DNA from: Enterococcus caccae ATCC BAA-1240
GTDB taxonomy: Bacteria; Bacillota; Bacilli; Lactobacillales; Enterococcaceae
Assembly: GCF_000407145.1 (NCBI RefSeq)
Contig: NZ_KE136472.1
Location: 496,001 to 560,000 of the forward strand
Direction: 5' to 3'
DNA: 64,000 nt
The position numbers and the translations under genes were made by a program. The stretch's first letter is position 1, and each line of letters begins with the position of its first letter. Shown one piece after another: positions 10,348 through 33,269 of the stretch. The notes under the pieces are model-generated. The model had not been told where the DNA came from and made no database searches. It worked only from the letters and a program-made list of their open reading frames with translations.

Positions 10348-10400
10348 CTAAAAAATATTTTTTAGGTAGCATTGTTTTTTTTTAGGTTGAGTGGTATAAT
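10348..10400 (+). promoter_or_regulatory. ssnA operon promoter with an 18-base perfect palindrome
   Basis: TTGTTT (10372-10377), 17 bases, TATAAT (10395-10400) with an extended TG. Just upstream is the perfect palindrome CTAAAAAATATTTTTTAG (10348-10365), and a further half-site TTTTTTAG ends at 10385 inside the promoter. Close relatives of the palindrome occur at the xdh and flavodoxin promoters (25206, 33230). This region (10154-10578) contains no gene. Confidence 0.65.
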
Positions 10401-10439
10401 TTACTCGAGTTAAGGGAAATAGTTAATTTTAAATTTGAA

Positions 10440-10453
10440 TGCAAGCGCTTTTT
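10440..10453 (+). promoter_or_regulatory. possible cre site 1 (CcpA) in the ssnA leader
   Basis: TGCAAGCGCTTTTT matches the first ten bases of the catabolite-responsive consensus TGNAANCGNTNNCA but not the final CA. Located downstream of the -10 element, where bound CcpA would block transcription. Confidence 0.4.
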
Positions 10454-10526
10454 TTAAAGTTGTAATAAGCTATGGAGCTAGTATTCAGATATCTATTCAT
10501 TCGTGAATGTTTGAACTATTTCTATA

Positions 10527-10540
10527 TGTAAGCGATTTCT
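10527..10540 (+). promoter_or_regulatory. probable cre site 2 (CcpA) in the ssnA leader
   Basis: TGTAAGCGATTTCT fits the catabolite-responsive consensus at all but the last base. It lies 38 bases before the ssnA start, a roadblock position. It implies that sugar represses the cluster. Confidence 0.55.
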
Positions 10541-10578
10541 GTTCGGGTGAAAAATAAATGTAATTTAGGAGGAAAAAG

Positions 10579-11913
10579 ATGTTACTAATAGGAAATGGAC
10601 GCCTAATCACCAGAGATAAGGAAGCTACTTTTTTTGACAATGGATGTGTGGCTATTGACGGTCAAAAGATAAAGGCAGTAGGAACTACGATGGAGTTAAG
10701 AGAAGGTTTTCCAGAAGCTGAATACATTGATGCGAAAGGTGGAGTGATCATGCCTGGGTTTATCAATATGCACAATCATATTTATAGTACTTTTGCTCGA
10801 GGATTAACTATCAATGGTTATCATCCTAAAAATTTTATGGATATTTTAGAAGGCCAATGGTGGCGGATCGATCGAACCTTAAATTTACAAGATTCGTATC
10901 ACAGTGCAAAAATCGCTTATTTAGATAGTATCCAAAATGGTGTGACAACGGTTTTTGATCATCATGCAAGCTATGGCTCGATTGAAGGGAGTTTGACTCA
11001 ACTTTCTAATGCAGCTGAGGAATTAGGTGTCCGTACTTGTTTATGCTATGAAGTATCAGATCGTGACGGTGAAGAAAAGATGAAAGCAGCAGTCAAAGAA
11101 AATGCTACTTTTATCAAAGCAAGTGCTGCTCGTACGGATGACATGCAAAAAGCGATGATGGGCATGCATGCGGCCTTTACACTGTCAGACAAATCGTTGG
11201 AGTATTGCGCCGCTTATACCCCAAAAGATGTTGGCTATCACATCCATATTGCAGAAGATATTGCCGATGTTTATGATTCATTGGCAAAGTATGGTAAGCC
11301 AATCGTAAACCGTTTATACGATCTAGGTATTTTGGGCAAGCAAACGATGGCAGGACATTGTATTCATATCAATCCACATGAAATGGAATTATTGCGGGAT
11401 ACAAACACAATGGTAGTAACAAATCCAGAATCAAATATGGGGAATGCTGTAGGATGTCCGCCAGCAATGCGTATGCTTAATGAGTATGGAATCTTGATGG
11501 GTCTTGGAACAGATGGTTATACGAATGATGTTACAGAATCATATAAAGTAGGCAATATTATCCACAAACATCATTTAGCTGATCCAAATGCCGCTTGGAC
11601 AGAAATGCCACAAATGTTATTCAATAATAATCCGCAAATGGCAAATCGCTATTTTGAGAAGAAACTAGGGGTTTTAGAACCTGATGCAGCAGCAGATGTG
11701 ATTGTGTTGGATTATAAAGGTCCAACACCTATGACGAAAGAGAATATTAATTCTCATATCTTGTTTGGCATGAATGGAGGAGCAGTTACAGATACTATCA
11801 TCAATGGTGAAATTCGCATGAGAAATCGAGAAGTGCAAGGCATTGATCAAGAAAAAATCTGGCATGATGCACAAACACAAGCGCAATCTCTTTGGTCAAG
11901 AATCAATGGCTAG
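10579..11913 (+). CDS. ssnA: putative aminohydrolase SsnA
   Basis: 444-residue amidohydrolase of the guanine deaminase/ATZ-TRZ group. Metal ligands are visible: GFINMHNHIYSTFARG (HxH), the histidine in YHIHIAED, the histidine in MAGHCIHI, and the aspartate in GLGTDGYTND. SsnA is a marker of selenium-dependent molybdenum hydroxylase clusters; its exact substrate is not settled, but a purine or ring-opened purine is expected. First gene of the operon; AGGAGG ribosome site; ygfK starts 38 bases after its stop. Confidence 0.92.
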   Translation: MLLIGNGRLITRDKEATFFDNGCVAIDGQKIKAVGTTMELREGFPEAEYIDAKGGVIMPGFINMHNHIYSTFARGLTINGYHPKNFMDILEGQWWRIDRTLNLQDSYHSAKIAYLDSIQNGVTTVFDHHASYGSIEGSLTQLSNAAEELGVRTCLCYEVSDRDGEEKMKAAVKENATFIKASAARTDDMQKAMMGMHAAFTLSDKSLEYCAAYTPKDVGYHIHIAEDIADVYDSLAKYGKPIVNRLYDLGILGKQTMAGHCIHINPHEMELLRDTNTMVVTNPESNMGNAVGCPPAMRMLNEYGILMGLGTDGYTNDVTESYKVGNIIHKHHLADPNAAWTEMPQMLFNNNPQMANRYFEKKLGVLEPDAAADVIVLDYKGPTPMTKENINSHILFGMNGGAVTDTIINGEIRMRNREVQGIDQEKIWHDAQTQAQSLWSRING

Positions 11914-11951
11914 ACAATACTAGCGTAGAAAATTAAAAAGGAGTGACAAAC

Positions 11952-14900
11952 ATGAGTGACATCATGCACCCAATTTCGATCGATGGGTTATTGAACTGGA
12001 TTTTAAATGAATACAGAAATGAATCAACTATTTTTGGTGTAAGAAAATTTTACAAAGCTGATCCAAACAAAACATTGCCTTTATTTGGCGAAAAAATGGA
12101 AACACCTTGTGGACCTGCTGCAGGACCACATACGCAATTAGCACAAAATATTATTGCATCTTATTTAACTGGTTCACGTTTTTTTGAAGTGAAGACGGTT
12201 CAAATCATTGATGGAGAAGATTTACCTGTTAGTAAGCCTTGTATCACAGCAGCAGATGAATGCTACAACGTGGAATGGTCAACGGAGTTGCGAGTTCCTC
12301 AAGCTTATGATGAATACGTTAAAGGTTGGTTTGTACTAAAACTGCTTAGCAAAGAACTTCATTTAGGTAATCCAGATGGCTTTATTTTCAATATGAGTGT
12401 TGGATACGACTTGGCTGGGATTCAATCACCAAAAGTTGATAAGTATATCACAGATATGCAGGATGCCGAAAATACACCGATTTGGCAAGAATGCAAAGAA
12501 GCTGCTTATAAATATTTGCCACAATTTAAACACGTGACCAAAGAATATATTGAAAGTATCAGTCCAAACGTTTGTCGTTCCATTACGTTATCTACATTAC
12601 ACGGCTGTCCATCAGATGAGATCGAACGAATTACCACTTATTTAATAGAAGAAAAAGGGCTGAATTCATTTATTAAATGTAATCCGACCATGTTGGGCTA
12701 TGAATACACACGTCAAACAATGGACGAATTAGGCTTTGATTATATGGTATTTGATGATCATCATTTTATTGAAGATTTGCAATTTGAAGATGCTGTTCCT
12801 ATGTTGACACGTTTACAAGCTTTAGCGGATAGTAAAAAACTTAATTTTGGCGTAAAAATCACTAATACTTTTCCAGTAGGGATTGCAGAAGAAGAGTTAC
12901 CTGGAGAAGAAATGTATATGTCAGGACGTTCATTATTTCCTTTGAGCATTTCCCTAGCGAAAAAGCTATCGGATGCATTCGATGGAAAGTTACAAATTTC
13001 TTATTCTGGAGGAGCAGATGTTTTTAATATTAAAGACATTTTTGATGCTGGAATTTGGCCGATCACAATGGCGACAACGTTGTTGAAACCGGGTGGCTAT
13101 CAACGCATGAACCAAGTAGCAAATTTATTAAGTGAATCAGTGTATCCAACGCAAGTCCATGTTGATTTAGACAAACTTACAACGATTGTAAAAAGAGCCA
13201 AAACACATGCTCGCTATAAGAAATCAATCAAATTACCAGAAAGTTCTAAATTAAGGACGACTGTCCCACTGACTAATTGTTACACAGCTCCTTGTCGTAG
13301 TGATGGCGGTTGTCCAATCGATCAGGATATTCCAGCCTATCTTCGTTATGTGAGTGAAGGCAACTATTTAGAAGCGTTAAAAGTGATTGTGGATAAAAAT
13401 CCATTGCCTTTCATTACAGGAACGATTTGTGCTCACCCTTGTATGACGAAATGTACGAGACAGTTTTATGAAGGAGCCATCAAAATTCGGGATGCGAAAT
13501 TAGAAGCTGCTGAACATGCTTATGATGATTTAATGGCAGGGATGGAAAAACCTGTTCGTAAAGAAAATGCACCTAAGACAGCAATTGTTGGTGGTGGGCC
13601 AGCAGGGATATCGGCTGGGTTCATACTTGCTCGTGAAGGAATGCCAGTAACCGTATTTGAAAAGGCCGACACGATTGGTGGTGTCTGTAGCCAAATCGTA
13701 CCAGAATTTAGAATTTCAATGAAATCTGTCCAAAATGATGTAGAAATGGCTAGATTCATGGGAGCCAAATTCAAAACAGGTCAGCCGGCTCCAGATATTG
13801 AAACGTTGCGTGAGCAAGGGTACACCAACATTATCTATGCAATTGGTGCTTGGAAACATGGAAAATTGAAATTAGAATCTGGCAAAGCAGTAAACTCATT
13901 AGAATTTTTAAAAGCTAATCGAAAAAATCCTCATCTTAATCCTTATGGAGAACAAATCGTAGTTGTCGGTGGTGGCAATACAGCAATGGATTGCGCTAGA
14001 GCTGCAACGACGTTACCAGGTGTGAAAAAAGTGTCAGTTGTTTACCGTCGAGACAAACGAAATATGCCTGCAGATGAGGAAGAATTGTACCTTGCTTTAG
14101 GAGATGGCGTAGAATTTTTAGAATTACTGTCACCGATAAAATTAGAAAATGGTCTGCTAACTTGTGAAAGAATGCGCTTAGGTGAACGCGATGGTTCAGG
14201 TCGTCGTAGACCAGTAGCAACAGGCAAATTTACTGAAGTGCCAGCGGATACTGTCATTGCTGCAGTTGGAGAGAAAGTGGATACAGACTTTTATCAATCG
14301 ATTGGAATCACAACGGATCAGTATGGAAAAGTTGTTTCCAATCAAGAAACACTAGAAACCAATTTGAAAGATGTCTATGTGATTGGTGATGCGAATCTTG
14401 GACCTGCGACAATTGTTGAAGCGATTGCCGATGCTACAAAAGCTACTAGAAATATTTGTCACATTCATAATGAGCATTATGAACAAACCAATCTTAATAA
14501 AAACGTGGCATCTGTGCGCAACAAACGCGGTATCTTAGAGCCGAATGAAGCACTTTGTGGACAAGCTAGTAATTGTTTGGACTGTTCAACGATTTGTGAA
14601 TCTTGTATGGATGTTTGTCCAAATCGCGCAAATATCGTCGTAAATGTTAAAGGACAGCCGCAACCACAAATTGTCCATGTGGATCGTATGTGTAATGAAT
14701 GCGGAAATTGCGAGACTTTCTGTCCATATTCAAGTGCACCATATAAAGATAAATTCACTCTATTTAATACAGAAGCAGACTTTGAAAATAGCGCAAATTC
14801 AGGTTTCTATGTGATCGATCCGAGAGAAAAAACGTGTCTAGTTCGTTTATGGGGTAACACTTCAACGATTTGTTTAGACGCTAAAGGATTAGATATTCCA

Positions 14901-14963
14901 GCGGATATCATCGATTTAATGGCTACGATGATCAAAGATTATGAATATTGTATGCATATGTAA
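11952..14963 (+). CDS. ygfK: YgfK-type iron-sulfur flavoprotein (putative selenate reductase subunit)
   Basis: 1003 residues. The N-terminal half resembles dihydropyrimidine dehydrogenase-type barrels. A cysteine cluster follows (CRSDGGCPID ... CAHPCMTKC, about 450-510), then a GltD-like FAD site (AIVGGGPAGISAG) and an NAD(P) site (VVVGGGNTAMDCARAA). Two C-terminal 4Fe-4S motifs are CxxCxxxCxxC-like (CESCMDVCP and CNECGNCETFCP). This architecture suggests electron transfer from NADPH or a low-potential carrier to a substrate. ATG 11952 is chosen over the in-frame GTG 11943, because AAGGAG (11938-11942) is well spaced only for the ATG. Confidence 0.92.
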   Translation: MSDIMHPISIDGLLNWILNEYRNESTIFGVRKFYKADPNKTLPLFGEKMETPCGPAAGPHTQLAQNIIASYLTGSRFFEVKTVQIIDGEDLPVSKPCITAADECYNVEWSTELRVPQAYDEYVKGWFVLKLLSKELHLGNPDGFIFNMSVGYDLAGIQSPKVDKYITDMQDAENTPIWQECKEAAYKYLPQFKHVTKEYIESISPNVCRSITLSTLHGCPSDEIERITTYLIEEKGLNSFIKCNPTMLGYEYTRQTMDELGFDYMVFDDHHFIEDLQFEDAVPMLTRLQALADSKKLNFGVKITNTFPVGIAEEELPGEEMYMSGRSLFPLSISLAKKLSDAFDGKLQISYSGGADVFNIKDIFDAGIWPITMATTLLKPGGYQRMNQVANLLSESVYPTQVHVDLDKLTTIVKRAKTHARYKKSIKLPESSKLRTTVPLTNCYTAPCRSDGGCPIDQDIPAYLRYVSEGNYLEALKVIVDKNPLPFITGTICAHPCMTKCTRQFYEGAIKIRDAKLEAAEHAYDDLMAGMEKPVRKENAPKTAIVGGGPAGISAGFILAREGMPVTVFEKADTIGGVCSQIVPEFRISMKSVQNDVEMARFMGAKFKTGQPAPDIETLREQGYTNIIYAIGAWKHGKLKLESGKAVNSLEFLKANRKNPHLNPYGEQIVVVGGGNTAMDCARAATTLPGVKKVSVVYRRDKRNMPADEEELYLALGDGVEFLELLSPIKLENGLLTCERMRLGERDGSGRRRPVATGKFTEVPADTVIAAVGEKVDTDFYQSIGITTDQYGKVVSNQETLETNLKDVYVIGDANLGPATIVEAIADATKATRNICHIHNEHYEQTNLNKNVASVRNKRGILEPNEALCGQASNCLDCSTICESCMDVCPNRANIVVNVKGQPQPQIVHVDRMCNECGNCETFCPYSSAPYKDKFTLFNTEADFENSANSGFYVIDPREKTCLVRLWGNTSTICLDAKGLDIPADIIDLMATMIKDYEYCMHM

Positions 14964-15012
14964 AAAAAATCCATGAGTGCAAAAACAACTTCTTAATGAT
15001 GGAGGTTAAAAA

Positions 15013-16395
15013 ATGTCTATCCTTTTAAAAGGCGGAATAGTAGTATCGGCAAAAAAACGTCGTCAAGTTGATGTGAGAATCGATGGCGAGAAAATTGTTG
15101 AAATAGGGACAAATTTAAAAGAAAACGGTTCCAACGTTGAAGATGTTTCAGGTTGTTTTTTATTACCAGGATTTATTGATGCTCATACTCATTTAGAACT
15201 GAATAATGGTAAAGGATCTATGAGTACCGCAGATAATTTTAATACAGGTAGTAAAGCAGCCGTTGCTAAAGGAACAACTACGGTGATCGATATGGCAACA
15301 CCAAGTAAAGGCAGTTCATTAAAAGACTGCCTAGTATCGTGGAACCAACTGGCTCAGGGAAACAGTTCTTGCGATTATACCTATCATATGTCGATCATTG
15401 AATGGAATTCCACTATCAAAAAAGAAATCAAAGAAATAATAAATGCTGGTATCACCTCATTTAAGATGTATATGGCCTATGATAATTTAAGGACAACAGA
15501 TGGAGAAATTTTTGAAGCAATGAGTGAAATCGGTCAGTTTCACGGAATGCTAGGGATTCATTGTGAGAATGGCGATATGGTCAACGAAATGATTGCAAAA
15601 TTTGTCGAAAAAGGAAATCTTGCACCACATTACCATCCTTTAACAAGACCTGATTCAGTCGAAGCAGAAGCTGTGGAACGTTACTTAATGATTGCTGATT
15701 TAGCAAAGTTACCAGTCAATATTGTTCATTTAAGTACCAAACGATCACTAGAAGCTGTTGAAAGAGCCAGAATTCGTAACCAAAAAGTTTATGTAGAAAC
15801 ATGTCCGCAATATTTAGTATTAGACGATCATTTATATGATGAGCCTAATTTTGAAGGGGCAAAGTATGTTTGTTCACCACCATTACGTAGTTTTAACGAT
15901 CAACAAGCATTATGGAATGGCGTGATCAACGGCCAAATCAACACGATTTCAACAGATCATTGTAGTTTTAATTTTGAGGGACAAAAAACAATCGGAAAAA
16001 ATGATTTCAGTAAAATACCAAATGGTATGCCCGGCGTCGAGACCCGCCCAGAATTGATTTATACCTATGGTGTGACGACTGGAAAAATTAGTTTAGAGCG
16101 AATGATTGGTTTACTTTCAGAAGATATTGCCAGGCAATTTGATTTATTTCCACAAAAGGGAATTATCCAAGTCGGAAGTGATGCAGATATTGTTGTTTGG
16201 GATCCATTGACGATAGGTGTTATCTCGGCTACAACACAACTCCAAAATGTAGATTACACACCTTATGAGGGAATGCAGACGAAAGGCAGTGCGAGAGCAG
16301 TTTATCTAAGAGGGCAAAAAGTAGCAGAAAACGGCAAGGTTATCGCAGAAAATCAAGGAGCATTTATTTTCCGCAAGATTTCAACTAGTCACTAA
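15013..16395 (+). CDS. hydA: dihydropyrimidinase/hydantoinase family amidohydrolase
   Basis: 460 residues. Cyclic amidohydrolase signatures: GFIDAHTHLELNNG (metal HxH), the lysine in TSFKMYMAY that would be carbamylated, histidines in GIHCENG and NIVHLSTKRS, and the aspartate in STDHCSF. It would open a hydantoin- or dihydropyrimidine-like ring; in this cluster a purine-derived ring is likely (inference). The E. coli counterpart is hyuA, in the same gene company. GGAGG ribosome site. Confidence 0.92.
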   Translation: MSILLKGGIVVSAKKRRQVDVRIDGEKIVEIGTNLKENGSNVEDVSGCFLLPGFIDAHTHLELNNGKGSMSTADNFNTGSKAAVAKGTTTVIDMATPSKGSSLKDCLVSWNQLAQGNSSCDYTYHMSIIEWNSTIKKEIKEIINAGITSFKMYMAYDNLRTTDGEIFEAMSEIGQFHGMLGIHCENGDMVNEMIAKFVEKGNLAPHYHPLTRPDSVEAEAVERYLMIADLAKLPVNIVHLSTKRSLEAVERARIRNQKVYVETCPQYLVLDDHLYDEPNFEGAKYVCSPPLRSFNDQQALWNGVINGQINTISTDHCSFNFEGQKTIGKNDFSKIPNGMPGVETRPELIYTYGVTTGKISLERMIGLLSEDIARQFDLFPQKGIIQVGSDADIVVWDPLTIGVISATTQLQNVDYTPYEGMQTKGSARAVYLRGQKVAENGKVIAENQGAFIFRKISTSH

Positions 16396-16448
16396 CGGAA
16401 TCAATCAACCTGTGTTGATTTAAATAAATAGATGGAGGGGAAAATTTT

Positions 16449-17642
16449 TTGGAAAAAATAAAATGGACGGCAAATGAAATGCCCAAAACAAATGATCAGT
16501 ATTTAACACTGATGTCAAAGGAAGCAATCGAAAAAGCTTTAGCTTTTCATCGTAGTTTCCCTCAATACAATCAGACGCCATTAGCTGAATTAAAAAATAT
16601 GGCTGAACATTTAGGATTAAAGGATTTCTTTGTCAAAGATGAATCATATCGTTTTGGTTTAAACGCATTTAAAGTGCTTGGTGGTTCATTCGCTATGGCA
16701 AATTATATCGCCGAAAAACTAGGAAAAGATGTTGCTGACTTGACCTATGATATTTTAACTTCTGATAAACTTCGAGATGAATTTGGTCAAGCGACATTCT
16801 ATACGGCGACAGATGGCAATCACGGTCGTGGTGTGGCTTGGGCAGCCAATAAATTAGGACAAAAAGCAGTTGTTTTGATGCCTAAAGGTTCAACACAAAC
16901 TCGTAAAGAAAACATCGAAAAAGAAGGCGCAAAAGTCACGATTGAAGAAGTTAATTATGATGAATGTGTGCGTATGGCTAACAAAATGGCTGAAGAAACT
17001 GAAAACGGTGTCATGGTGCAAGATACAGCTTGGGATGGTTACGAAAAAATTCCAACATGGATCATGCAAGGCTATGGCACGATGGCATTAGAGGCTTCAC
17101 AACAACTAAAAGAAGCTGGGAAAGAGCGGCCGACACATGTTTTTGTTCAAGCGGGTGTTGGGAGTTTAGCGGGAGCTGTTGTTGGTTATTTTGCTAATCT
17201 TTATCCGGATAATCCACCAAAAATGATCGTTGTTGAAGCGCAAGCAGCAGATTGTCTATATAAATCAGCAATCGAAAAAGATGGAAAAATTCGCTTTGTT
17301 GAAGGTGATTTGCAGACAATCATGGCAGGTCTGGCTTGTGGCGAACCAAATACGATTTCATTTGATATTTTAGAAAACCATACATCAGTCTTTGTTTCAG
17401 CACCAGACTGGGTTTCAGAAAAAGGAATGAGAATGCTTGGCGCACCATTAAAAGGGGATCCGCAAGTAATTTCAGGAGAATCAGGAGCGGTAGCAATGGG
17501 CTTAGTGGCAACAGCAATGCAAGATCCTGACTATAAAGAGTTACGTGACACATTGAAACTAGACGAAAACTCAACTGTTTTAATGTTCTCAACAGAAGGC
17601 GACACAGATCCAGCTAATTATAAAAAAATCTTATGGAGGTAA
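16449..17642 (+). CDS. dpaL: diaminopropionate ammonia-lyase
   Basis: 397-residue fold type II PLP enzyme (YgeX). The Schiff-base lysine is in LNAFKVLGGS, and TDGNHGRGVAWAA is the family's substrate-loop motif. It splits 2,3-diaminopropionate to pyruvate and two ammonia. The start is TTG at 16449 with GGAGGGG eight bases before; no in-frame ATG suits better. ygeY follows 5 bases after the stop with the ribosome site inside the end of dpaL. Pyruvate made here could feed the pyruvate:flavodoxin oxidoreductase encoded at 36.3 kb. Confidence 0.93.
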   Translation: MEKIKWTANEMPKTNDQYLTLMSKEAIEKALAFHRSFPQYNQTPLAELKNMAEHLGLKDFFVKDESYRFGLNAFKVLGGSFAMANYIAEKLGKDVADLTYDILTSDKLRDEFGQATFYTATDGNHGRGVAWAANKLGQKAVVLMPKGSTQTRKENIEKEGAKVTIEEVNYDECVRMANKMAEETENGVMVQDTAWDGYEKIPTWIMQGYGTMALEASQQLKEAGKERPTHVFVQAGVGSLAGAVVGYFANLYPDNPPKMIVVEAQAADCLYKSAIEKDGKIRFVEGDLQTIMAGLACGEPNTISFDILENHTSVFVSAPDWVSEKGMRMLGAPLKGDPQVISGESGAVAMGLVATAMQDPDYKELRDTLKLDENSTVLMFSTEGDTDPANYKKILWR

Positions 17643-17647
17643 TATAA

Positions 17648-18964
17648 ATGGATTTCAATGAAATTAACAAAGCAGCAGAAGGTTACAGAGAGGACATGAT
17701 CAAATTTTTACGTGATTTAGTAAAAATCCCGGGAGAAAGTGCTGAAGAAGGCGCAAAAATGGATCGGGCGAAAGCTGAAATGGAAAAATTAGGCTTTGAC
17801 AAAATCGAAGTCGATCCTCAAGGAAACTTATTAGGGTATATGGGGACAGGAAAAAAACTGATTGCTTTTGACGGACACATGGATACAGTCGGCATTGGTG
17901 AAATGAGCAACTGGGAATTTGATCCATATGATGGCTATGAAACCGATACTGAAATTGGCGGACGCGGGACTTCCGACCAAGAAGGTGGCATCGTTTCTGC
18001 TGTTTACGGTGCGAAAATCATGAAAGATTTAGGACTGCTAAATGAAAAATATACAGCACTAGTAACTGTTACCGTTCAAGAAGAAGATTGCGATGGATTA
18101 TGCTGGCAATATATTATTCAAGAAGATAAGATTCGTCCAGAATTTGTAGTCTCAACTGAACCAACAGATGGCGGTATTTACCGTGGACAACGTGGTCGCA
18201 TGGAAATCAAAGTTGAAGTGAAAGGCGTATCTTGTCACGGATCGGCTCCGGAACGAGGGGACAATGCTATTTATAAAATGGCTGACATTTTACAAGATGT
18301 TCGAGCATTAAACAATAATGGTGATACTGAAAGTACGGTTATTAGAGGTTTAGTCCGTATGCTTGATGAAAAATATAACCCTGAATGGAAAGAAGCACGT
18401 TTCTTAGGAAAAGGAACAGTGACAGCGTCACAGATCTTCCATTCATCACCAAGCCGTTGTGCGGTAGCAGATGGTTGTACGGTTTCATTAGACCGTCGTA
18501 TGACAGCAGGAGAAACATGGGAAAGTTGCCTTGAGGAAATTCGTCAATTACCTGCTGTTAAAAAGTATGGAGATGATGTTGTTGTCTCAATGTATGACTA
18601 TGATCGCCCATCTTATACAGGGTTAACGTATCCAATCGAATGTTACTTCCCAACTTGGGTGATTCCAGAAGAACATGGTGTAACAAAAGCGTTGATGGAA
18701 ACCCATAGAAATCTATATGGCGAAGAACGTAAAGGCTCAAAAGAAACGCTTGAAATGCGTAAAGCACGTCCACTTTTAGATAAATGGACATTCTCAACAA
18801 ATGGCGTATCGATCATGGGACGCAACGGTATTCCGTGTATCGGCTTTGGTCCAGGAGCTGAAGCACAAGCACATGCACCGAATGAAAAAACATGGAAAGA
18901 CGATTTAGTCCGTTGTGCTGCAGTGTATGCCGCATTGCCAACTGTATATTGTGAAAACAACTAA
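17648..18964 (+). CDS. ygeY: YgeY family selenium-metabolism-linked M20 hydrolase
   Basis: 438-residue M20 metallopeptidase-like amidohydrolase. Zinc site: [10 protein letters not shown], the bridging aspartate in [10 protein letters not shown], and the glutamates in [11 protein letters not shown] dimerisation domain sits in the middle. Family relatives deacylate or decarbamoylate amino acid derivatives; here it probably acts on a ring-opened intermediate that leads to diaminopropionate (inference). GGAGG ribosome site. A perfect 10-bp hairpin lies in the 107-base gap before ygeW. Confidence 0.92.
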
Positions 18965-18997
18965 ATGATCGGCTATAAAGCATAGCGGCAAACGAAC

Positions 18998-19032: not shown

Positions 19033-19071
19033 CGTATCGTATCATAACAACTAACTTAGAGGAGAAATGAT

Positions 19072-23625: not shown

Positions 23626-23640
23626 AAAGGAGGTCTTGAA

Positions 23641-25295: not shown

Positions 25296-27869
25296 ATGTA
25301 TACATTAGTAGTAAATGGTAAGACGGAAACCTGTGATACGAATAAGAAGTTGATGGATTTCTTGCGGGAAGATTTGAGTTTAACAGGAACAAAAGATGGT
25401 TGTAATCAGGGCTCTTGTGGTGCTTGTTCAGTGTTGATAAATGGAAGGGTTTCCAAAGCGTGCTTATTTAGCTTAGAGAAGCTAGATGGAAAAGAAGTTG
25501 TTACAATCGAAGGGTTAGATCAGCGTCAAAAAGATGTTTATGCGTATGCCTTTGCTAAAACAGGTGCGGTTCAATGTGGGTATTGTATTCCAGGGATAGT
25601 TATCTCAGCGCATGGACTACTGAATAAAAAAGCGGAACCTAGTAATGAAGAGGTAAGAAAAGCGATTCGTGGAAATATCTGTCGATGTACAGGTTATGTA
25701 AAAATAGTAGAAGCAATCCAGTTAGCTGCTAAACTCTTTCGTGAAAACTTGAGCATTCCAGAAGAACACTCAAACGCAAAATTAGGTGAGGATTTCAAGC
25801 GTATTGATGCAGTTGAAAAAACGTTAGGAACGGGTCTTTATGTTGACGATATTACCGTCGAAGGGATGCTCCATGCCTCAGCTGTTCGCAGCACATATCC
25901 AAGAGCGAAAGTTCTAAAAATTGATACGAGCAAAGCCGCAGAACATCCAGCGTGCGTTGCGGTACTTACGTCTAAAGATGTTCCAGGAAATAATAAAATC
26001 GGCCATTTAGAGTTTATTTCTGATTGGGATGTCATGATACCAGAAGGTGAGATCACTCGATATGTCGGCGATGCCATCGCCTTAGTCGTATCAAACAAAA
26101 AAGAACTATTGGAAGAAATCAAAGAATTAGTAAAAGTCACGTATGAGGAGCTTACTCCGATGATTTCATATGAAGCGGCTTTAGCGGATGACGCACCACT
26201 GATTCACGAAAAAGGCAATATTTTATCCCATGAACATCTCATTCGTGGCAATGCGAATGAGCAGTTGGCAGCATCTGAATATGTCGTAACGCAACATTAT
26301 TCAGTCCCAATCAATGAACATGCTTTTATGGAGCCGGAGTGTGCAATTGCAATGCCAGAAGGTGACTCAGGAATTTTACTGTATAGCGCAGGACAAAGTA
26401 TTTATGATGAACAACGGGAAGTTGCTCGTATGCTAGGCGTCGAAAAAGAGAAAATACATGTCCAAGCTAAATTAGTTGGTGGCGGTTTCGGCGGAAAAGA
26501 AGATATGAGCGTACAACATCACGCCTCACTTGCAGCGTGGTGTCTGCAAAAACCAGTAAAAGTATTACTTAGTCGGCAAGAAAGCTTGATGATTCATCCA
26601 AAACGTCATGGTATGGAGATGGACTTCACTACAGGTTGCGATGCTGAAGGAAATTTAACAGCTATGAAAGCTGTGATTTACGCTGATACTGGGGCATACG
26701 CATCTTTAGGAGGACCAGTCCTTCAACGAGCTTGTACACATGCTGCGGGTCCATACAAGTATCAACATATTGATGTAGAAGGATTTGCGGTTTATACGAA
26801 TAATCCGCCATCTGGAGCATTTCGAGGTTTTGGTGTATGTCAGACTGCGTTTGCCATTGAAAACAATCTTAACTTGTTAGCCGAAAAAGTCGGAATCTCG
26901 CAATGGGACATCCGTTATAAAAATGCTGTTGGACCAGGAGATTCGTTACCAAATGGCCAACTAGTTTCAAAAAATGCAGCACTGAAAGAAACATTACTTG
27001 CTGTTAGAGAGGCATATGAAGAGGCAGAGATTGCGGGCCTATCATGTTTCTTCAAAAATAGCGGAATCGGTGTTGGCTTATCGGATATCGGTCGCTGTAT
27101 TGTTTCGGTTGAAAATGGCAAAGTTCATGTCAGAACCAGTGCAGCTTGTATCGGCCAAGGGATGGCGACGGTTACAACTCAAGTTGCTTGTGAAGCCTTA
27201 GATTTACCTCCAGAAATGGTTATTGCAGAAGCACCAGATACGCGAAGAACACCAGATTCAGGTACTACAACGGCATCACGACAATCCTTATTTACAGGTG
27301 AAGCCACAAGAAGAGCAGCGATGCAATTACGTTATGAGCTAGATATGGGACGTGTGTTATCGGATTTAGAAGGACAAGAATTTTACGGAGAATATTCAGC
27401 TAAAACAGATCCTTTGATCAACGATAAAAGAAGTCCTGTCAGTCATGCTGGATATGGCTATGCATCTGAAGTTGCAATTTTAGATAAAAAAGGCAAAGTC
27501 GAAAAATTTGTAGCAGCATACGATATGGGCCAAGTAGTTAATCCAAAGGCTGCCGAAGGTCAAATTGAAGGTGGAATCGTCATGGGGATGGGGTATGCTT
27601 TAACGGAGAAATTTATTTTAGAAGAAGGCTATGTAAAAGCAAAATATGCAACGTTAGGTTTACTAAATGCTACTCAAGTACCGCCGATTGAAACGATTTT
27701 AGTTCAAGCAGAAAATATTCATGACGGATTAGCATATGGAATTAAAGGAGTAGGAGAGTTAGCAACAATTCCTACTGCACCAGCCTTAGCAGGCGCCTAT
27801 TATGCGTTAGATGGCAAGTTAAGACCAACCTTGCCGATGGAAGATACATTTTATCAAAAGAAAAAATAA
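25296..27869 (+). CDS. xdh: selenium-dependent xanthine dehydrogenase (molybdenum hydroxylase)
   Basis: 857 residues. N-terminal 2Fe-2S domain (CNQGSCGACSVLING ... C), second 2Fe-2S domain (QCGYC ... NICRCTGY), then the large molybdopterin domain from about 165 on (GGGFGGKEDMSVQ; NPPSGAFRGFG; GIKGVGELATIPTAPAL). The FAD domain of classical xanthine dehydrogenase is absent, so electrons must leave through another carrier. Fusion of iron-sulfur and molybdenum parts is typical of the selenium-dependent type. Start ATG 25296 is chosen over TTG 25278, because GAGGTG (25280-25285) serves the ATG. Contains no in-frame TGA; selenium would be in the cofactor. Confidence 0.92.
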   Translation: MYTLVVNGKTETCDTNKKLMDFLREDLSLTGTKDGCNQGSCGACSVLINGRVSKACLFSLEKLDGKEVVTIEGLDQRQKDVYAYAFAKTGAVQCGYCIPGIVISAHGLLNKKAEPSNEEVRKAIRGNICRCTGYVKIVEAIQLAAKLFRENLSIPEEHSNAKLGEDFKRIDAVEKTLGTGLYVDDITVEGMLHASAVRSTYPRAKVLKIDTSKAAEHPACVAVLTSKDVPGNNKIGHLEFISDWDVMIPEGEITRYVGDAIALVVSNKKELLEEIKELVKVTYEELTPMISYEAALADDAPLIHEKGNILSHEHLIRGNANEQLAASEYVVTQHYSVPINEHAFMEPECAIAMPEGDSGILLYSAGQSIYDEQREVARMLGVEKEKIHVQAKLVGGGFGGKEDMSVQHHASLAAWCLQKPVKVLLSRQESLMIHPKRHGMEMDFTTGCDAEGNLTAMKAVIYADTGAYASLGGPVLQRACTHAAGPYKYQHIDVEGFAVYTNNPPSGAFRGFGVCQTAFAIENNLNLLAEKVGISQWDIRYKNAVGPGDSLPNGQLVSKNAALKETLLAVREAYEEAEIAGLSCFFKNSGIGVGLSDIGRCIVSVENGKVHVRTSAACIGQGMATVTTQVACEALDLPPEMVIAEAPDTRRTPDSGTTTASRQSLFTGEATRRAAMQLRYELDMGRVLSDLEGQEFYGEYSAKTDPLINDKRSPVSHAGYGYASEVAILDKKGKVEKFVAAYDMGQVVNPKAAEGQIEGGIVMGMGYALTEKFILEEGYVKAKYATLGLLNATQVPPIETILVQAENIHDGLAYGIKGVGELATIPTAPALAGAYYALDGKLRPTLPMEDTFYQKKK

Positions 27870-27983
27870 TAAAATGATTTTGTGAGGTGCTTAAAAAAAG
27901 ACGCATAATGACGAAAAAACGCATCCGATAAATAGGATTGGGTGCGGTTTTGCTTACGGATTGAATGTAAAAGGAGTTCACAA

Positions 27984-28583
27984 ATGTTGAAAATTAGTGC
28001 AATCATCATGGCTTCAGGTTTTTCTTCGAGAATGGGTAAGAATAAGTTGTTTCTTGAATACCAAGGAGAAACCTTCTTAAATCATACGCTAAACCTCACA
28101 AAAAAAATACCTTTTTTTGAACGTATCTTAGTTATTTCACCTGAAAGTTTACAGGGATTACAGTTACCAAAAGATCTTAACATCATCCAAAATACTGAAG
28201 CGCAAAAAGGACAAAGTGCAAGTGTTCGCCTCGGAACAAAAGCCGCAACAGGTGAAGGATATCTTTATCTTCCTGTAGATCAACCTTTATTAAACAAAGC
28301 ATTACTAGAATCACTTTTTAGAGACTATTCAAAAGATACGATCGTTTTTCCAGTGAATCAATTAGGGGAGCCAAGTAGTCCTATGTTCTTTGGTAGAAAC
28401 TTTCGAACAGAATTGCTAAACGTCACTGGGGATTCTGGAGGACGTGTGGTTCGTAATAATCATCCGGAAGCATGGCGTGAAGTTTGGATAAAGGATTCTG
28501 GATGTTTGATTGATATTGATACACCAGCAGAATACAAAAAAATAATCGATCAAAATTTGGAGATAAGTGAGAAAGGACTTTAA
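27984..28583 (+). CDS. mocA: molybdenum cofactor cytidylyltransferase (MocA/YgfJ)
   Basis: 199 residues. Nucleotidyltransferase fold with IIMASGFSSRMGKNKL at the start and LYLPVDQPLL as the metal/nucleotide motif. It would join CMP to molybdopterin to give the cytosine dinucleotide form used by bacterial hydroxylases. Start ATG 27984 has AAAAGGAG nine bases before; an earlier in-frame ATG (27942) lacks a ribosome site. Confidence 0.9.
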   Translation: MLKISAIIMASGFSSRMGKNKLFLEYQGETFLNHTLNLTKKIPFFERILVISPESLQGLQLPKDLNIIQNTEAQKGQSASVRLGTKAATGEGYLYLPVDQPLLNKALLESLFRDYSKDTIVFPVNQLGEPSSPMFFGRNFRTELLNVTGDSGGRVVRNNHPEAWREVWIKDSGCLIDIDTPAEYKKIIDQNLEISEKGL

Positions 28584-28584
28584 A

Positions 28585-29736
28585 ATGAAGCACTCAATAT
28601 ATCTGAATCATGCCGCAACTTCTAATCATAAATTTGAAGCAACAATTCAAGAGGTCTCTCAGTATTTGGAAGCAAACAATAATCTGAATATAAATCGTGG
28701 TTCGCAAAATAGTGATGAACTTGAAGTGATTTTTGAAGCTCGCCAAGCTTTTGCAACTTTTTTTCATGCGCCTGACCCAGCACACATTATTTTTACAGCA
28801 AATGCAACAACTTCGCTGAATATGATTTTAAATGGTTTAGTGAAATCTGGCGATCACGTCATAACGACAGCAGTCGAGCATAATGCGGTTGCTAGACCTC
28901 TTCATATGTTGGAAAGGCAACAGAATATTTCAGTGAGTCATTTACGCTGTGAACCAAATGGAAAGCTTGATCCTACACAAATGGAAGCGCAAATTCGCCC
29001 AGAAACAAAAGTGTTAGTAATGACCCATGCATCAAATGTATTAGGGACTATTTTACCCATCAAAGAATGCTTCGAAATTGCAAAAGCACATGGAATCATC
29101 ACGGTTTTAGACAGTGCTCAAACAGCTGGCTTTTTGCCAATTGATATGGAAGAAATGTTGATTGATGTTTTAGCATTTACAGGACACAAAAGTTTGATGG
29201 GATTAACTGGAATAGGCGGCTTTTCATTAGCACAAAATATGGAAAAAGAAATCACTCCTTGGATGAGTGGGGGGACGGGAAGTGCTTCATTATCATTAGA
29301 GCAGCCTAATTTTTTACCCGATAAATTTGAGGCAGGTACCTTAAATATGCTAGGTATTTTGAGCTTAAAAAGTGCACTAAAATCAATAAATATACTTGGA
29401 TTAGATCGAATCGCACTACATGAACGAGTATTGACTGCACGATTCTTAGAGGGGTTAAAAAACTTACCTGTAACTATTTTAGGAAGTACCGATCCAACTG
29501 AGATGGTACCAGTTGTTTCTATTACAACAACACTAGTTGATCCAGGAGAACTTTCTCAGCAATTATTCAATCGTTATCAAATCATCACACGATCTGGATT
29601 ACATTGTTCTCCGCTTGCACATCAAACAGCAGGAACGTTAAAAACAGGTGCCGTACGTTTTAGTTTTGGCTGGAACACAACGATTGATGAAATCGATTAT
29701 ACTCTAAACGCTTTAAAGGAAATCTTGTCGGAATAG
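28585..29736 (+). CDS. cysteine desulfurase family aminotransferase (NifS-like, selenium cluster type)
   Basis: 383 residues, class V PLP enzyme. The PLP lysine is in FTGHKSLMG, and the persulfide/selenide cysteine is in RSGLHCSPLAHQ. I recall that the protein family for this type is named after an E. faecalis member. In this place it probably delivers sulfur or selenium to SelD, YedF or the cofactor. ATG 28585 (AAAGGA upstream) is preferred over the in-frame GTG 28567, which overlaps mocA. Confidence 0.9.
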   Translation: MKHSIYLNHAATSNHKFEATIQEVSQYLEANNNLNINRGSQNSDELEVIFEARQAFATFFHAPDPAHIIFTANATTSLNMILNGLVKSGDHVITTAVEHNAVARPLHMLERQQNISVSHLRCEPNGKLDPTQMEAQIRPETKVLVMTHASNVLGTILPIKECFEIAKAHGIITVLDSAQTAGFLPIDMEEMLIDVLAFTGHKSLMGLTGIGGFSLAQNMEKEITPWMSGGTGSASLSLEQPNFLPDKFEAGTLNMLGILSLKSALKSINILGLDRIALHERVLTARFLEGLKNLPVTILGSTDPTEMVPVVSITTTLVDPGELSQQLFNRYQIITRSGLHCSPLAHQTAGTLKTGAVRFSFGWNTTIDEIDYTLNALKEILSE

Positions 29737-29754
29737 ATGCAAAGGAGAAAATCA

Positions 29755-30777
29755 ATGAATTTTTTATCACAATGTACTTCTGGCGGCTGTGGCGCTAAGA
29801 TCGGTCCGAATGAATTAGCCGAATTTTTAAAAAGTCTGCCCAAATTTTCTGATGAAAAACTATTAGTAGGTTTTGATGCATCCGATGATGCCGCGGTTTA
29901 TCAATTATCAGAGGAGCTTGCACTGATTTCAACGATAGATTTTTTTTCGCCCATGGTTGAAGATCCTCGTACTTTCGGTAGAATCGCTGCGGCGAATGCG
30001 ATGAGTGATGTTTATGCAATGGGTGGGAAAGTATTATTCGCATTAAACTTAGTTTGTTTTCCAGAAAAAATGGATAAACGAAAGCTTTCAGAAATTCTGA
30101 TCGGTGGTGCAGAAAAACTAGAAGAAGCGAATGCTTCATTGGCTGGTGGCCATTCCATCTATGATCATGAACCTAAATACGGATTAGCAGTAACAGGGCA
30201 AGTGGATCCGCGGAAAATCATTCATAATAATACTCCGAAAATAGGGGATGTCTTGATTCTTACTAAGGCGTTGGGTGTTGGGCTAGTTCAATCAGCTGTC
30301 AGAGGAGGTCTCGCTTGTAAAGAAGCAAAAGCGGCGGCAATCGCGTCAATGGAACGTTTAAACAAATATGCTGCAGAAAAAATGGGGAAGTTCCCTGTCC
30401 ATGCTTGTACTGATGTGACGGGGTTTGGTTTACTGGTTCATGCATTAGAAATGGCTGGAGAGAATGCAACATTAGTCATTGATGCAGCACAATTACCGCT
30501 TTTACCGCAAGCCTATTATTATGCGGAAGAATTTTTAGCAACAGCAGCGGGTCAAAGAAATCGACAATTTATGAAAAGTAAAGTTGATTTGAGTGCTGTT
30601 TCTCCGGCATACCAAGAGATTCTTTTTGATCCCCAAACTTCAGGTGGCTTGTTGATCAGTGTTAAAGCAGAAAAAGCATTAGAATGTCTTGAAACTATTC
30701 AAAAAGATGATCCAGTCGCGGCAATTATTGGTGAAGTTTGTGAAAAAGAATCAAGTCAGTCAATAATTCTTGTCTAA
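29755..30777 (+). CDS. selD: selenide, water dikinase
   Basis: 340 residues. It makes selenophosphate from selenide and ATP. The active-site motif is TSGGCGAKIGP, with cysteine (TGT) in the catalytic place, not selenocysteine, and the essential lysine two residues later. GGHSIYDHEPKYG and DVTGFGLLVHALEMA are typical. No selA, selB or tRNA-Sec is in the window, so its product probably serves the molybdenum hydroxylase (orphan SelD type). AAAGGAG suits ATG 29755. Confidence 0.95.
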   Translation: MNFLSQCTSGGCGAKIGPNELAEFLKSLPKFSDEKLLVGFDASDDAAVYQLSEELALISTIDFFSPMVEDPRTFGRIAAANAMSDVYAMGGKVLFALNLVCFPEKMDKRKLSEILIGGAEKLEEANASLAGGHSIYDHEPKYGLAVTGQVDPRKIIHNNTPKIGDVLILTKALGVGLVQSAVRGGLACKEAKAAAIASMERLNKYAAEKMGKFPVHACTDVTGFGLLVHALEMAGENATLVIDAAQLPLLPQAYYYAEEFLATAAGQRNRQFMKSKVDLSAVSPAYQEILFDPQTSGGLLISVKAEKALECLETIQKDDPVAAIIGEVCEKESSQSIILV

Positions 30778-30793
30778 GAAAGAAGGAGCAGCG

Positions 30794-31384
30794 ATGAAAA
30801 AAATCAATGCAATAGGAAAGCCGTGTCCAATTCCAGTAATCGAGGCGAAAAAGGCCATTCGAGAGTTGAACAATGCTGAAGGAACCATCGAAATAACAGT
30901 CGATAATGAAGTGTCAGTGAAAAATATCGAAAAAATGGCAATAGGTTTAGGTCTGAAAACGACTAGTCAAAAGTGTAAAAATGATGAATTTAAGGTTGAA
31001 ATCGTTGTTCAAAAAAAAGATGAGTCACTAAATTCAGTTGCTTCAAATAACGAATTAGTGATTGCTTTTGGCAGGCAAACAATGGGAGATGGTGATGTTG
31101 ATCTAGGAGCGATTTTACTAAAAAGTTATATTTATTCTTTGACTGAACTAGATACACCACCTAACCACCTGTTGTTTTTCAACAGTGGGGCATTTTTAAC
31201 AAATCAAGGCTCTAATACTTTAAAAGACCTACAGGTTTTATTAGATAAGGGGACACAAATCAGTACTTGTGGCGCTTGTTTAGATTTTTATCGGATCAAA
31301 GAAACATTAGCTATCGGTGAAATCACAAATATGTATGGTATCACAGAAATAATGGCACAAGCGAAAAAAGTGATTAATTTCTGA
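30794..31384 (+). CDS. yedF: YedF: sulfurtransferase-like selenium metabolism protein
   Basis: 196 residues in two parts. A TusA-like domain has the GKPCPIPVIEAKK cysteine motif (about 1-70). A DsrE-like domain (about 85-196) carries cysteines in STCGACLDFY. It probably carries or relays selenium or sulfur in cofactor maturation. AAGGAG precedes ATG 30794, 16 bases after the selD stop; the in-frame TTG at 30770 overlaps selD and has no ribosome site. Confidence 0.9.
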   Translation: MKKINAIGKPCPIPVIEAKKAIRELNNAEGTIEITVDNEVSVKNIEKMAIGLGLKTTSQKCKNDEFKVEIVVQKKDESLNSVASNNELVIAFGRQTMGDGDVDLGAILLKSYIYSLTELDTPPNHLLFFNSGAFLTNQGSNTLKDLQVLLDKGTQISTCGACLDFYRIKETLAIGEITNMYGITEIMAQAKKVINF

Positions 31385-31399
31385 ACATGAGGTGGAAGA

Positions 31400-31657
31400 A
31401 TGGACTATCTTTTAACATTTCAAAATACCCATTATGCAGTGCACAGTGAGAAAGTATTGCTGAATAAAAAGATTCTTGTCTCCGTGATGGCATTGCCGAC
31501 AAGTTTAGGTGATTTTTGTGGAATTTGTTTAAGAATTGCCAAGGAAGATTTTGTATTTGGACGACAGTTTTTAGAAGAGGCGAAAATACCGATCAAAGGG
31601 ATTTTTAAGATTGAAGGAACGAAGAATGAAAGGACGTATCTACCATGGAACCCTTGA
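31400..31657 (+). CDS. DUF3343, putative Se/S carrier-like protein
   Basis: 85 residues. Small thioredoxin-sized protein with the DUF3343 pattern: HSEKVLLNKKI, VMALPTSLGDFCGICLRI with its two cysteines, and a C-terminal lysine-rich strand. Such proteins accompany selD/yedF and are thought to carry selenium or sulfur. GAGGTGG precedes the ATG. Its last 13 bases overlap yqeC, so the two are translated together. Confidence 0.85.
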   Translation: MDYLLTFQNTHYAVHSEKVLLNKKILVSVMALPTSLGDFCGICLRIAKEDFVFGRQFLEEAKIPIKGIFKIEGTKNERTYLPWNP

Positions 31658-32385
31658 TCAATTGTTTTGATTTTCAAGGAAAACAAGTAGTTTCACTGAT
31701 TGGAAGCGGTGGAAAGACAAGTTTAATGTGGTATCTTGCTGACTGCTATCGTAATCAATCAGTTTTGGTCAGCACGACAACTAAAATAGGGTGTCCAGTA
31801 GATCGTCCTCATGATTATTTTTATAGTAGTAATTTTTCAAATCTAGGGTGCGATGGACAGGGAATCACTTTAGCTGGAAGAGTTTGCGAAGGTGGATATA
31901 AGTTGAAATCACTGCCACTTCCTGTTTTTGAAGAGTTGCTTCCACATTTTGATAAAGCTTTTCTAGAAGCTGATGGCTCCAAACAATTACCGTTAAAAGG
32001 TTGGGAAACGTTTGAGCCAGTTGTTTTACCTAAAACGACTGTCACGATTGGTTTAATTCCCATCTCTGCTGTCGGAAAAAACATCGATCAAATGACAGTC
32101 CACCGTCTCGCACTATTTTTACGAGCAACAGGGGCTATTCAAGGAGAGAAAGTTAAAGAAGAAACATTAGCTGAAATTATTGCAAGCCCCACGGGTTTAT
32201 GGAAAAAAAGCCATGGACAACGTATTTTATGTATCAATCAAGTTCAAACAATAGAACAATTAAAGCAAGCGAAAAAAGTTTTAGCTTTGCTCCCCCAGAT
32301 GTTATTAAAACGTTTGAGTAAAGTGATTGCATGCAATGTTCAAACTAAGGAAGGAATTGTCTTATGGGAAAAACTAAACAATTAA
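31645..32385 (+). CDS. yqeC: YqeC: selenium-dependent hydroxylase accessory protein
   Basis: 246 residues. P-loop-like motif SLIGSGGKTSLMWYLAD (about 15-31) and EADGSKQLPLKGW in the middle match YqeC. Its role in putting selenium on the molybdenum cofactor is inferred in the family from gene company, not from chemistry. It overlaps the gene before by 13 bases and yqeB after by 22. Confidence 0.9.
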   Translation: MEPLINCFDFQGKQVVSLIGSGGKTSLMWYLADCYRNQSVLVSTTTKIGCPVDRPHDYFYSSNFSNLGCDGQGITLAGRVCEGGYKLKSLPLPVFEELLPHFDKAFLEADGSKQLPLKGWETFEPVVLPKTTVTIGLIPISAVGKNIDQMTVHRLALFLRATGAIQGEKVKEETLAEIIASPTGLWKKSHGQRILCINQVQTIEQLKQAKKVLALLPQMLLKRLSKVIACNVQTKEGIVLWEKLNN

Positions 32386-33194
32386 TTTCTGAAACAATTG
32401 TAGTTGTTCGAGGTGGGGGTGATTTGGCTACGGGAGTCATCCAAAAATTAGCTCATACAGGCTTTAAAGTAGTTGTTTTAGAAACAGCTAAGCCTTTAGC
32501 TATTCGGCGTACAGTTGCTTTGTGCACAGCAGTTTTTCAAGGGAGACAGCAAGTAGAAGACACAGAAGCAGTGTTCGTTTCTTCAGTGTCAGAATGTGAG
32601 GCAATCTGGAATAATAATCAGATTCCTATGTTGATTGATGCTGAAGCGAAATTATTGACTGAACTGAAACCAACTGTTTTGGTAGATGCAATTCTTGCTA
32701 AAAAAAACTTAGGCACAAACAAAATGATGGCCCCTATTACGATAGCGTTAGGACCAGGATTTTCAGCGCCAAAAGATGTTGATGTGGTGGTTGAAACAAT
32801 GAGAGGACATCATTTAGGTCGATTGTATTTTAATGGGGGAGCTATTCCTAATACAGGAACTCCTGGGGAGATTGGTGGAAAAAGTGCTGAACGTGTTATT
32901 CATTCACCAACATCTGGAAACGTTCAGCATATAAAAAAAATCGGTGATGTGGTAAGAAAGGGAGAGGTGCTCTTTTATATTGACCAAGTTGCTATAAAAT
33001 CACCGTTAGACGGTGTATTGAGAGGAATGATTTCAGAGGAAGTCGTATGTCAAATAGGATTAAAATGTGGTGATGTCGATCCACGTTCTTTTGACAAAGT
33101 CGATTGTTATACGATATCTGATAAAGCGAGGGCTTTAGGTGGAGCTGTTTTAGATGCAACACTCTGGATTGGACGAGAAAAAAACTTGTTTTAG
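32364..33194 (+). CDS. yqeB: YqeB: selenium-dependent molybdenum cofactor maturation protein
   Basis: 276 residues. N-terminal Rossmann-like motif VVVRGGGDLATGVIQKL, a middle GPGFSAPKDVDVVVETMRGH section and a biotinyl/lipoyl-like C-terminal part (GDVVRKGEVLFYID). The family is found only with selenium-dependent hydroxylases. Last gene of the xdh operon; a new promoter for flavodoxin follows. Confidence 0.9.
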   Translation: MGKTKQLISETIVVVRGGGDLATGVIQKLAHTGFKVVVLETAKPLAIRRTVALCTAVFQGRQQVEDTEAVFVSSVSECEAIWNNNQIPMLIDAEAKLLTELKPTVLVDAILAKKNLGTNKMMAPITIALGPGFSAPKDVDVVVETMRGHHLGRLYFNGGAIPNTGTPGEIGGKSAERVIHSPTSGNVQHIKKIGDVVRKGEVLFYIDQVAIKSPLDGVLRGMISEEVVCQIGLKCGDVDPRSFDKVDCYTISDKARALGGAVLDATLWIGREKNLF

Positions 33195-33229
33195 TATAAT
33201 TTTCAAAAACTTAAAATTATTTTTTTTAC

Positions 33230-33269
33230 CTAAAAAATATTGTTTTGAATGTGTGGTTTATGGTATAGT
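33230..33269 (+). promoter_or_regulatory. flavodoxin-nfn-nifJ promoter with palindrome-like operator
   Basis: CTAAAAAATATTGTTTTG (33230-33247) shares its first 12 bases with the ssnA palindrome and overlaps the -35 element TTGTTT (33240-33245). The -10 element TATAGT with extended TG is at 33264-33269. Geometry to the -10 is within one base of that at xdh. Confidence 0.58.

Follow-up and report, generated by a model that had tools for sequence, protein, structure and literature searches.

A conserved palindrome at five promoters of uric-acid, formate and molybdenum genes in Enterococcus caccae: a probable operator with a YheO-type protein as candidate reader

How gut bacteria break down uric acid matters for purine balance and gout (PMC12507026). 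According to the parts of that paper available to us, Enterococcus termitis UAD1 uses formate as co-substrate when it turns uric acid into CO2, NH3 and acetate, the conversion being incomplete without formate, and the enzymes XdhD and YgfK work reductively (PMC12507026). The word 'regulator' is absent from the main text of the paper. The literature that we searched (titles, abstracts and passages) yielded no operator or dedicated regulator for enterococcal uric-acid breakdown, and the only regulator with a partial effect was MafR, a global regulator of the Mga/AtxA family in E. faecalis OG1RF (PMC4707282). In the microarray of a mafR mutant, as given in the available parts of that study, the molybdenum-cofactor (Moco) operon of seven genes falls with log2 fold changes of -2.5 to -3.7 and the Se-hydroxylase and selD genes fall by about -3; 87 genes are down in total, and sugar, citrate and glycerol operons are affected (PMC4707282). 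Five of the six MafR-regulated promoters examined are AT-rich, and those parts of PMC4707282 hold no operator sequence for MafR that we could find. We analysed a window of 64,000 nucleotides of Enterococcus caccae ATCC BAA-1240 (contig NZ_KE136472.1, positions 496,001 to 560,000), in which an 18-base palindrome accompanies a cluster of uricolytic, Se-dependent xanthine dehydrogenase (Se-XDH) and pyruvate:flavodoxin oxidoreductase (PFOR) genes.

A first-pass annotation had reported this palindrome at the ssnA, xdh and flavodoxin promoters and had proposed a cluster-specific regulator. The three sequences lie where it placed them, the -10 elements are TGGTATAAT, TGGTATAAT and TGGTATAGT, respectively, and the palindrome centre stands 38.5 (ssnA), 24.5 (xdh) and 25.5 (flavodoxin) bases from the -10, as claimed. 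The list of promoters was incomplete: besides the three in the window there are two outside it, making five in total. The palindrome is conserved among relatives, placed at promoters and exclusive to this set of targets, which strongly supports a shared, cluster-linked regulator. We take the palindrome to be a genuine operator and judge it somewhat better than an even bet that it serves one regulon with five promoters, most likely read by a YheO-type protein encoded divergently from ssnA. The elements in the window are as follows.

10348 to 10365, no strand: candidate operator at ssnA, the perfect palindrome CTAAAAAATATTTTTTAG; perfect in 10 of 13 Se-XDH genomes of the genus and in G022, G092 and Vagococcus acidifermentans.
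10375 to 10385, plus strand: additional half-site TTTTTTTTTAG, set 20 bp downstream of the palindrome's right half, where it overlaps the spacer and the end of the -35.
10372 to 10400, plus strand: predicted ssnA promoter, TTGTTT, 17 bp and TATAAT with an extended TGG, read from sequence and conserved; its start point is predicted.
25206 to 25223, no strand: candidate operator CTAAAAAATAATTTTTAG over the xdh -35, with the -10 at 25239 to 25244; at most two mismatches in 13/13 Se-XDH genomes of the genus.
33210 to 33227, no strand: tandem copy CTTAAAATTATTTTTTTT, placed 20 bp upstream of the flavodoxin operator.
33230 to 33247, no strand: candidate operator CTAAAAAATATTGTTTTG over the flavodoxin -35, with the -10 TATAGT at 33264 to 33269.

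The extra half-site at ssnA, also reported in the first pass, is present; more exactly, it is a TTTTTTAG that is conserved at 20 bp downstream of the palindrome. Taken over all targets, the half-site CTAAAAA/TTTTTAG forms a palindrome at ssnA, xdh and mobA and recurs as a repeat spaced by 20 bp (ssnA, moaC and flavodoxin) or 17 bp (mobA).

When the window was scanned for CTAAAAAATAWTTTTTAG with up to three mismatches, both strands counted, nine matches were found against a mean of 1.6 in 100 shuffles, none of which reached nine. Across the whole genome (3,549,662 bases in 7 contigs), the same threshold gives 34 places, compared with 46 for the reversed pattern used as control. Two places match the 18-mer perfectly, ssnA and position 561297 of contig C2, the latter before mobA and outside the window; the one-mismatch class consists of xdh alone. 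Three places make up the two-mismatch class, namely flavodoxin, a site inside a gene of AraC-type appearance and another at the end of one resembling a peroxidase type, both judged by eye; 28 places have three mismatches, the moaC promoter among them. By ORF context, 15 of all 34 places are intergenic and five of these are the ssnA, xdh, flavodoxin, mobA and moaC promoters, the remaining ten being counted as background. By itself, then, only the class with zero or one mismatch stands out, and weak matches by themselves mean nothing, given that the reversed pattern yields more places than the real one. The first pass had regarded many equally good or better matches outside promoters as damaging; ssnA and xdh have none, and the flavodoxin site, matched as well at two other places in the genome, rests on conservation among relatives. 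A degenerate core, AAAAATAWTTTTTW, scanned in 14 genomes, exceeded twice its control in 3 of the 14, among the matches listed, and was uninformative.

The perfect palindrome at C2:561297 precedes mobA at the head of a molybdenum and formate-dehydrogenase gene run, in which follow a formate/nitrite transporter, NuoE- and NuoF-type subunits, a 906-aa molybdopterin oxidoreductase and moeA. The oxidoreductase carries Fe-S domains of the NADH-dehydrogenase type and, judged by its domains and neighbours, would be an NAD-linked formate dehydrogenase. A mobB-like ORF of this run has no Pfam match and bears an assumed label. After the mobA run come moaC, moaA, MOSC, mog, a second moeA-type gene and modABC; several of the gene names in both runs are our assignments from general knowledge. 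The fifth site, before moaC, is degenerate: CTAAAAAAAATTATTTAT, 9 bases, TTTTTTTTTAG, 6 bases and TGCTAAACT. This is the same arrangement as at ssnA, where CTAAAAAATATTTTTTAG, 9 bases, TTTTTTTTTAG, 6 bases and TGGTATAAT follow one another. The mobA promoter, alone among the five, is near-consensus (TTGACT-16-TATAAT).

Conservation was assessed in a genus sample of 22 genomes, 13 with Se-XDH and 9 without. The perfect 18-mer is present in 12 of the 13 Se-XDH genomes and in none of the 9 others, and the reversed control has no occurrence in any of the 22; the naive hypergeometric P for the association with Se-XDH is 2e-5, the species not being independent. All 20 perfect places in the genus lie at two promoters, 10 at ssnA and 10 at mobA (18 assigned by tblastn of loci and 2 from cluster sequences). 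The half-site pair CTAAA-N6-8-TTTAG has 36 matches in 682,100 bases of stretches from the 13 genomes, distributed as 13 at xdh, 13 at ssnA, 10 at mobA and none elsewhere. Related enterococci thus keep the motif, as the first pass had expected of a real element.

At xdh, all 13 genomes have a site with at most two mismatches, and its distance to TATAAT is fixed while the upstream flank and the spacer vary. At ssnA, the half-site pair is present in 13/13, with 10 perfect palindromes, one mismatch in G014 and a shorter element in G002 (by two bases) and G012 (by one base). Of 20 ssnA upstream regions, 17 have TTTTAG copies spaced by exactly 20 bp; the spacing is 22 bp in G006, and one copy is altered in G020 and G022. 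The mobA palindrome is perfect in 10/13, with three mismatches in G018 and G012 and a degenerate form only in G021; a second TTTAG stands 17 bp downstream in 10/13. In 14 of 21 genomes (13/13 of the genus, and G022) the flavodoxin promoter has CTWAAAAWTATTGTT together with another left half-site 20 bp farther upstream; this upstream copy reads CTAAAAA in 12/12 other Se-XDH genomes of the genus and CTTAAAA in the window. The moaC element is found in 14/14 (again the genus genomes with Se-XDH plus G022), and 13 of these also keep its right half-site TTTTTTAG. As controls, the upstream regions of pbuX and ygeW give best matches with 4-9 mismatches and that of modE with 3-8.

In more distant relatives the elements persist unequally. 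The ssnA element is perfect or has one mismatch in G022, G092, V. acidifermentans and V. allomyrinae; its right half and the 20-bp repeat are kept in V. elongatus, Loigolactobacillus rennini (where the spacing is 19 bp) and the more distant Enterococcus genomes G023, G040, G060 and G062, and a weaker form is seen in Tetragenococcus-type genomes. The xdh element fades to at least three mismatches in G023, G040, G060, G062, G094, G097 and G098 and has three in V. allomyrinae and V. elongatus; the G096 site was left out as a match without N-terminus. The moaC element is not recognisable in G098, and G094 keeps only an ATTG-T-run.

Two regulators are encoded within the cluster, whose genes in the window are arranged as follows.

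9515 to 10153, minus strand: YheO-type regulator (PAS_6 and HTH_22 by Pfam), divergent from ssnA; preferred candidate reader.
10579 to 23352, plus strand: uricolytic run ssnA, ygfK, hydantoinase, diaminopropionate lyase, ygeY, ygeW, arcC, Rid and xanthine permease (NCBIfam), probably an operon.
23603 to 23625, no strand: ModE-type box CGCTATCTTTTTGAAGTATAACG before modE, in 13/13 Se-XDH genomes of the genus.
23641 to 24027, plus strand: protein of 128 aa with the ModE DNA-binding domain only, from family and structure matches.
25296 to 33194, plus strand: genes for Se-XDH, MocA, SclA, SelD and YedF, a YqeC gene and a gene that we take, partly from synteny, to be of the YqeB type.
33484 to 39814, plus strand: flavodoxin, a pair like NfnA and NfnB, and the PFOR run, some of these names being presumed.

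The ssnA leader also contains sequences like the motif that we take to be the CcpA cre, TGCAAGCGCTTT and TGTAAGCGATTT (10440-10451 and 10527-10538), and the moaC leader contains TGAAAGCGTTTT (L049 8390-8401). There are four such matches in the window against 0.8 expected and one in L049 against 0.23 expected, and catabolite repression of the same regulon is possible.

The YheO-type protein is the best candidate for the reader, although a putative one. It has PAS_6 (7.6e-34) and HTH_22 (1.1e-19) domains in Pfam and no relative in the PDB at E up to 0.1. Its gene is divergent from ssnA, with the element or the TTTTTTAG repeat between them, in 20/20 mapped clusters with ssnA upstream sequence and in 5/5 further loci. 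In a family sample of 105 genomes (23 with Se-XDH and 82 others), YheO is found at E <1e-60 in 22 of the 23 and in 2 of the 82. G016, which has no Se-XDH match, holds a YheO remnant only (37 residues, 76% identity; L277 4746-4865), perhaps left over from a cluster that was lost. An 18-base variant, CTCATRAATATTTGTTAA, lies over the likely -35 of the YheO gene in Tetragenococcus-type genomes and in G099, where Se-XDH and a close ModE match are both missing (L276 16133-16150; L265 ~3200). The variant may be an autoregulatory site of YheO; at 4-5 mismatches from the consensus it is too weak to use.

The other candidate of the first-pass annotation, the ModE-type protein, is now disfavoured. We regard it as quite improbable that this HTH-only protein reads the palindrome and that the sites mark a molybdenum regulon. 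Such a regulon would hold moa, moe, mob and modABC-type genes, as observed, and ModE is found at E <1e-20 in 22 of the 23 Se-XDH genomes of the family and in none of the 82 others; its motifs also vary by lineage, the HTH-only ModE of Desulfovibrio having a different one according to the available parts of PMC545781. The protein itself matches the DNA-binding domain and no molybdate-binding (Mop) domains, with ModE of E. coli (1b9m, E 9e-15) and a putative ModE of Agrobacterium (2ijl, E 2.7e-18) as best structures, and its AlphaFold model (mean pLDDT 86.6) only confirms the ModE DNA-binding fold. However, modE is preceded by a box of its own: CGTTATC-N9-TATAACG stands directly before its ribosome site in 13/13 genomes of the genus (CGCTATC in the window), which suggests ModE autoregulation. 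This box resembles the E. coli-type consensus ATCGNTATATA-N6-TATATANCGAT given in the accessible portion of PMC545781, being one base shorter, and has relatives in G092, G023, V. allomyrinae and V. elongatus and, before two xdh-type genes, in G094. In 74 loci around ModE-relative genes of several phyla, where a first-order Markov model predicts 2.7 occurrences of CGNTAT-N9-13-ATANCG, 38 are seen, a count inflated by related species and including ModE relatives that are not necessarily HTH-only. The palindrome is unlike this pattern. At ssnA, xdh and flavodoxin the best match to the ModE box has mismatches at 2-3 of 10 positions (three genomes), and the exact pattern, in 22 cluster and 18 Moco stretches, is absent at ssnA, flavodoxin, mobA and moaC and present at xdh only in G094. 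In G097, most of the modE ORF that should lie between pbuX and xdh is gone (L276 3331-3706), a loss that may be recent since the start of the ORF survives; the remaining cluster is present, the xdh and ssnA elements persist despite the broken gene, and the xdh promoter is the same as in its near relative G098. In L. rennini, ModE has its own box, CGCTATCTTTACTGAGATAGCG, and a remnant of the palindrome stays between YheO and ssnA. Because of the second, different box before modE and these two cases, ModE most likely reads its own box. We dropped it as reader of the palindrome on account of that box and of its enrichment near ModE-relative genes. By eye, the L. rennini modE gene lies in an unrelated, nitrogenase-like-looking run with metal-type ABC transporter genes (L192 1-10808).

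A regulator encoded elsewhere, with MafR as a named possibility, is a more serious candidate, one that we hold to be possible and still rather doubtful. In the available parts of PMC4707282, MafR positively influences, directly or indirectly, the orthologous Moco and Se-hydroxylase/selD operons, and their joint fall in the mafR mutant offers independent support for the co-regulation of two operons. Presence of the motif also tracks the whole pathway, so any pathway-dependent regulator fits. Against this, the most widely conserved element sits in the divergent region between YheO and ssnA, even in Loigolactobacillus, and we do not take MafR as the reader because the palindrome marks only this pathway whereas MafR spans many sugar, citrate and glycerol operons. 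The MafR evidence nevertheless lowered our confidence in YheO slightly and raised that in an unlinked regulator to the same small extent. That the sites are merely AT-rich, UP-like promoter elements or chance runs is a reading to which we give hardly any credence: the genome is AT-rich and there is no excess over the reversed control at three mismatches, but the CTA and TAG ends stay the same where the flanks change, the mobA site comes after the -10 of its promoter, all 36 half-site pairs are at target promoters and the reversed control never occurs in the genus genomes. Several observations count against a YheO-read regulon of five promoters. Co-occurrence does not separate YheO from ModE, given their near-equal distribution, nor from an unlinked protein. 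G099 and G103, which also lack ssnA, keep YheO relatives (58 and 50% identity, respectively) with no element within 8 kb, a point in favour of an unlinked regulator; G094, without a YheO match, retains AT-rich remnants at xdh and mobA, its contig starting inside the cluster so that a gap is possible. Read naively, G094 and G097, with its broken modE, point opposite ways, and we give no weight to G094. V. acidifermentans has YheO, no recognisable xdh element and a flavodoxin element that is weak at best; the flavodoxin core is absent in 7 of 21 genomes (G023, G040, G060, G062, G092, G097 and G098), and G012, G018 and G021 are without a perfect or near-perfect mobA palindrome. The poor -35 hexamers at four promoters would also suit an activator, and the MafR effect on two orthologous operons argues for an activator or an indirect effect.

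The reader, its signal and the sign of regulation are inferences, and all start points are predicted from sequence. The palindrome centre lies at about -51 at ssnA (moaC having the same layout), at -36 to -38 at xdh and flavodoxin and at about +20 at mobA. This placement suits a repressor operator at all five targets, covering about +11 to +28 at mobA and the -35 at xdh and flavodoxin, with a half-site within the promoter at ssnA and moaC; if one sign holds at all five, only a repressor is possible. The YheO-type protein would accordingly repress all five promoters until its PAS domain senses a signal linked to purines or redox state. An alternative is a dual regulator that activates the four promoters with poor -35 elements and represses mobA; the MafR effect would suit activation.

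The regulon joins uric-acid reduction, formate uptake and the presumed NAD-linked formate dehydrogenase, and also covers Moco synthesis with molybdate transport and the PFOR-flavodoxin-Nfn genes. Formate oxidation would then supply reductant for the reductive breakdown of uric acid. Diaminopropionate lyase yields pyruvate, which PFOR converts to acetyl-CoA. E. termitis LMG 8895 carries this cluster (L182), and a one-switch regulon fits the published formate need of E. termitis; G018 has the mobA operon with a three-mismatch mobA site and a perfect ssnA site. The fuller proposal, that a dedicated PAS-HTH_22 regulator with a new half-site code (CTAAAAA/TTTTTAG, with 17- and 20-bp repeats) switches a complete formate-fuelled uric-acid fermentation as a unit, has in our estimate just under an even chance. 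If true, this would be, to our knowledge, the first operator assigned to the PAS-HTH_22 family, and it would form the regulatory side of the reported dependence of E. termitis on formate in uric-acid degradation. The exact 18-mer has no occurrence in the literature that we searched, which covers few subscription journals, and operator and regulon are new, though ordinary in kind. The value of the operator is that it defines a set of genes acting together, links uric-acid reduction with formate dehydrogenase and the supply of molybdenum, and tells the ModE type from the YheO type, two candidates that gene neighbourhood by itself would confuse.

Among known systems, the YheO/DauR-type PAS_6-HTH_22 proteins, among which we count DauR, have the same two domains and are divergent from a pathway that they possibly control. 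The titles and abstracts searched include no operator paper for this type. The E. coli ModE regulon is alike in having one operator for molybdate transport, cofactor synthesis and molybdoenzymes, and the ModE DNA-binding domain is encoded in the cluster here; in contrast, the operator sequence is unrelated, ModE here is without a molybdate-binding domain and has its own box, and purine, formate and PFOR genes are included. MafR of E. faecalis likewise affects the Moco and Se-hydroxylase/selD operons together, and positively, in the parts of PMC4707282 available to us. Formate-dependent uric-acid breakdown, as described for E. coli AegA/UacF and E. termitis UAD1 in the available parts of PMC12507026, shares the same pathway genes and the formate link, whereas here a shared operator ties the formate-dehydrogenase genes to the uricolytic genes.

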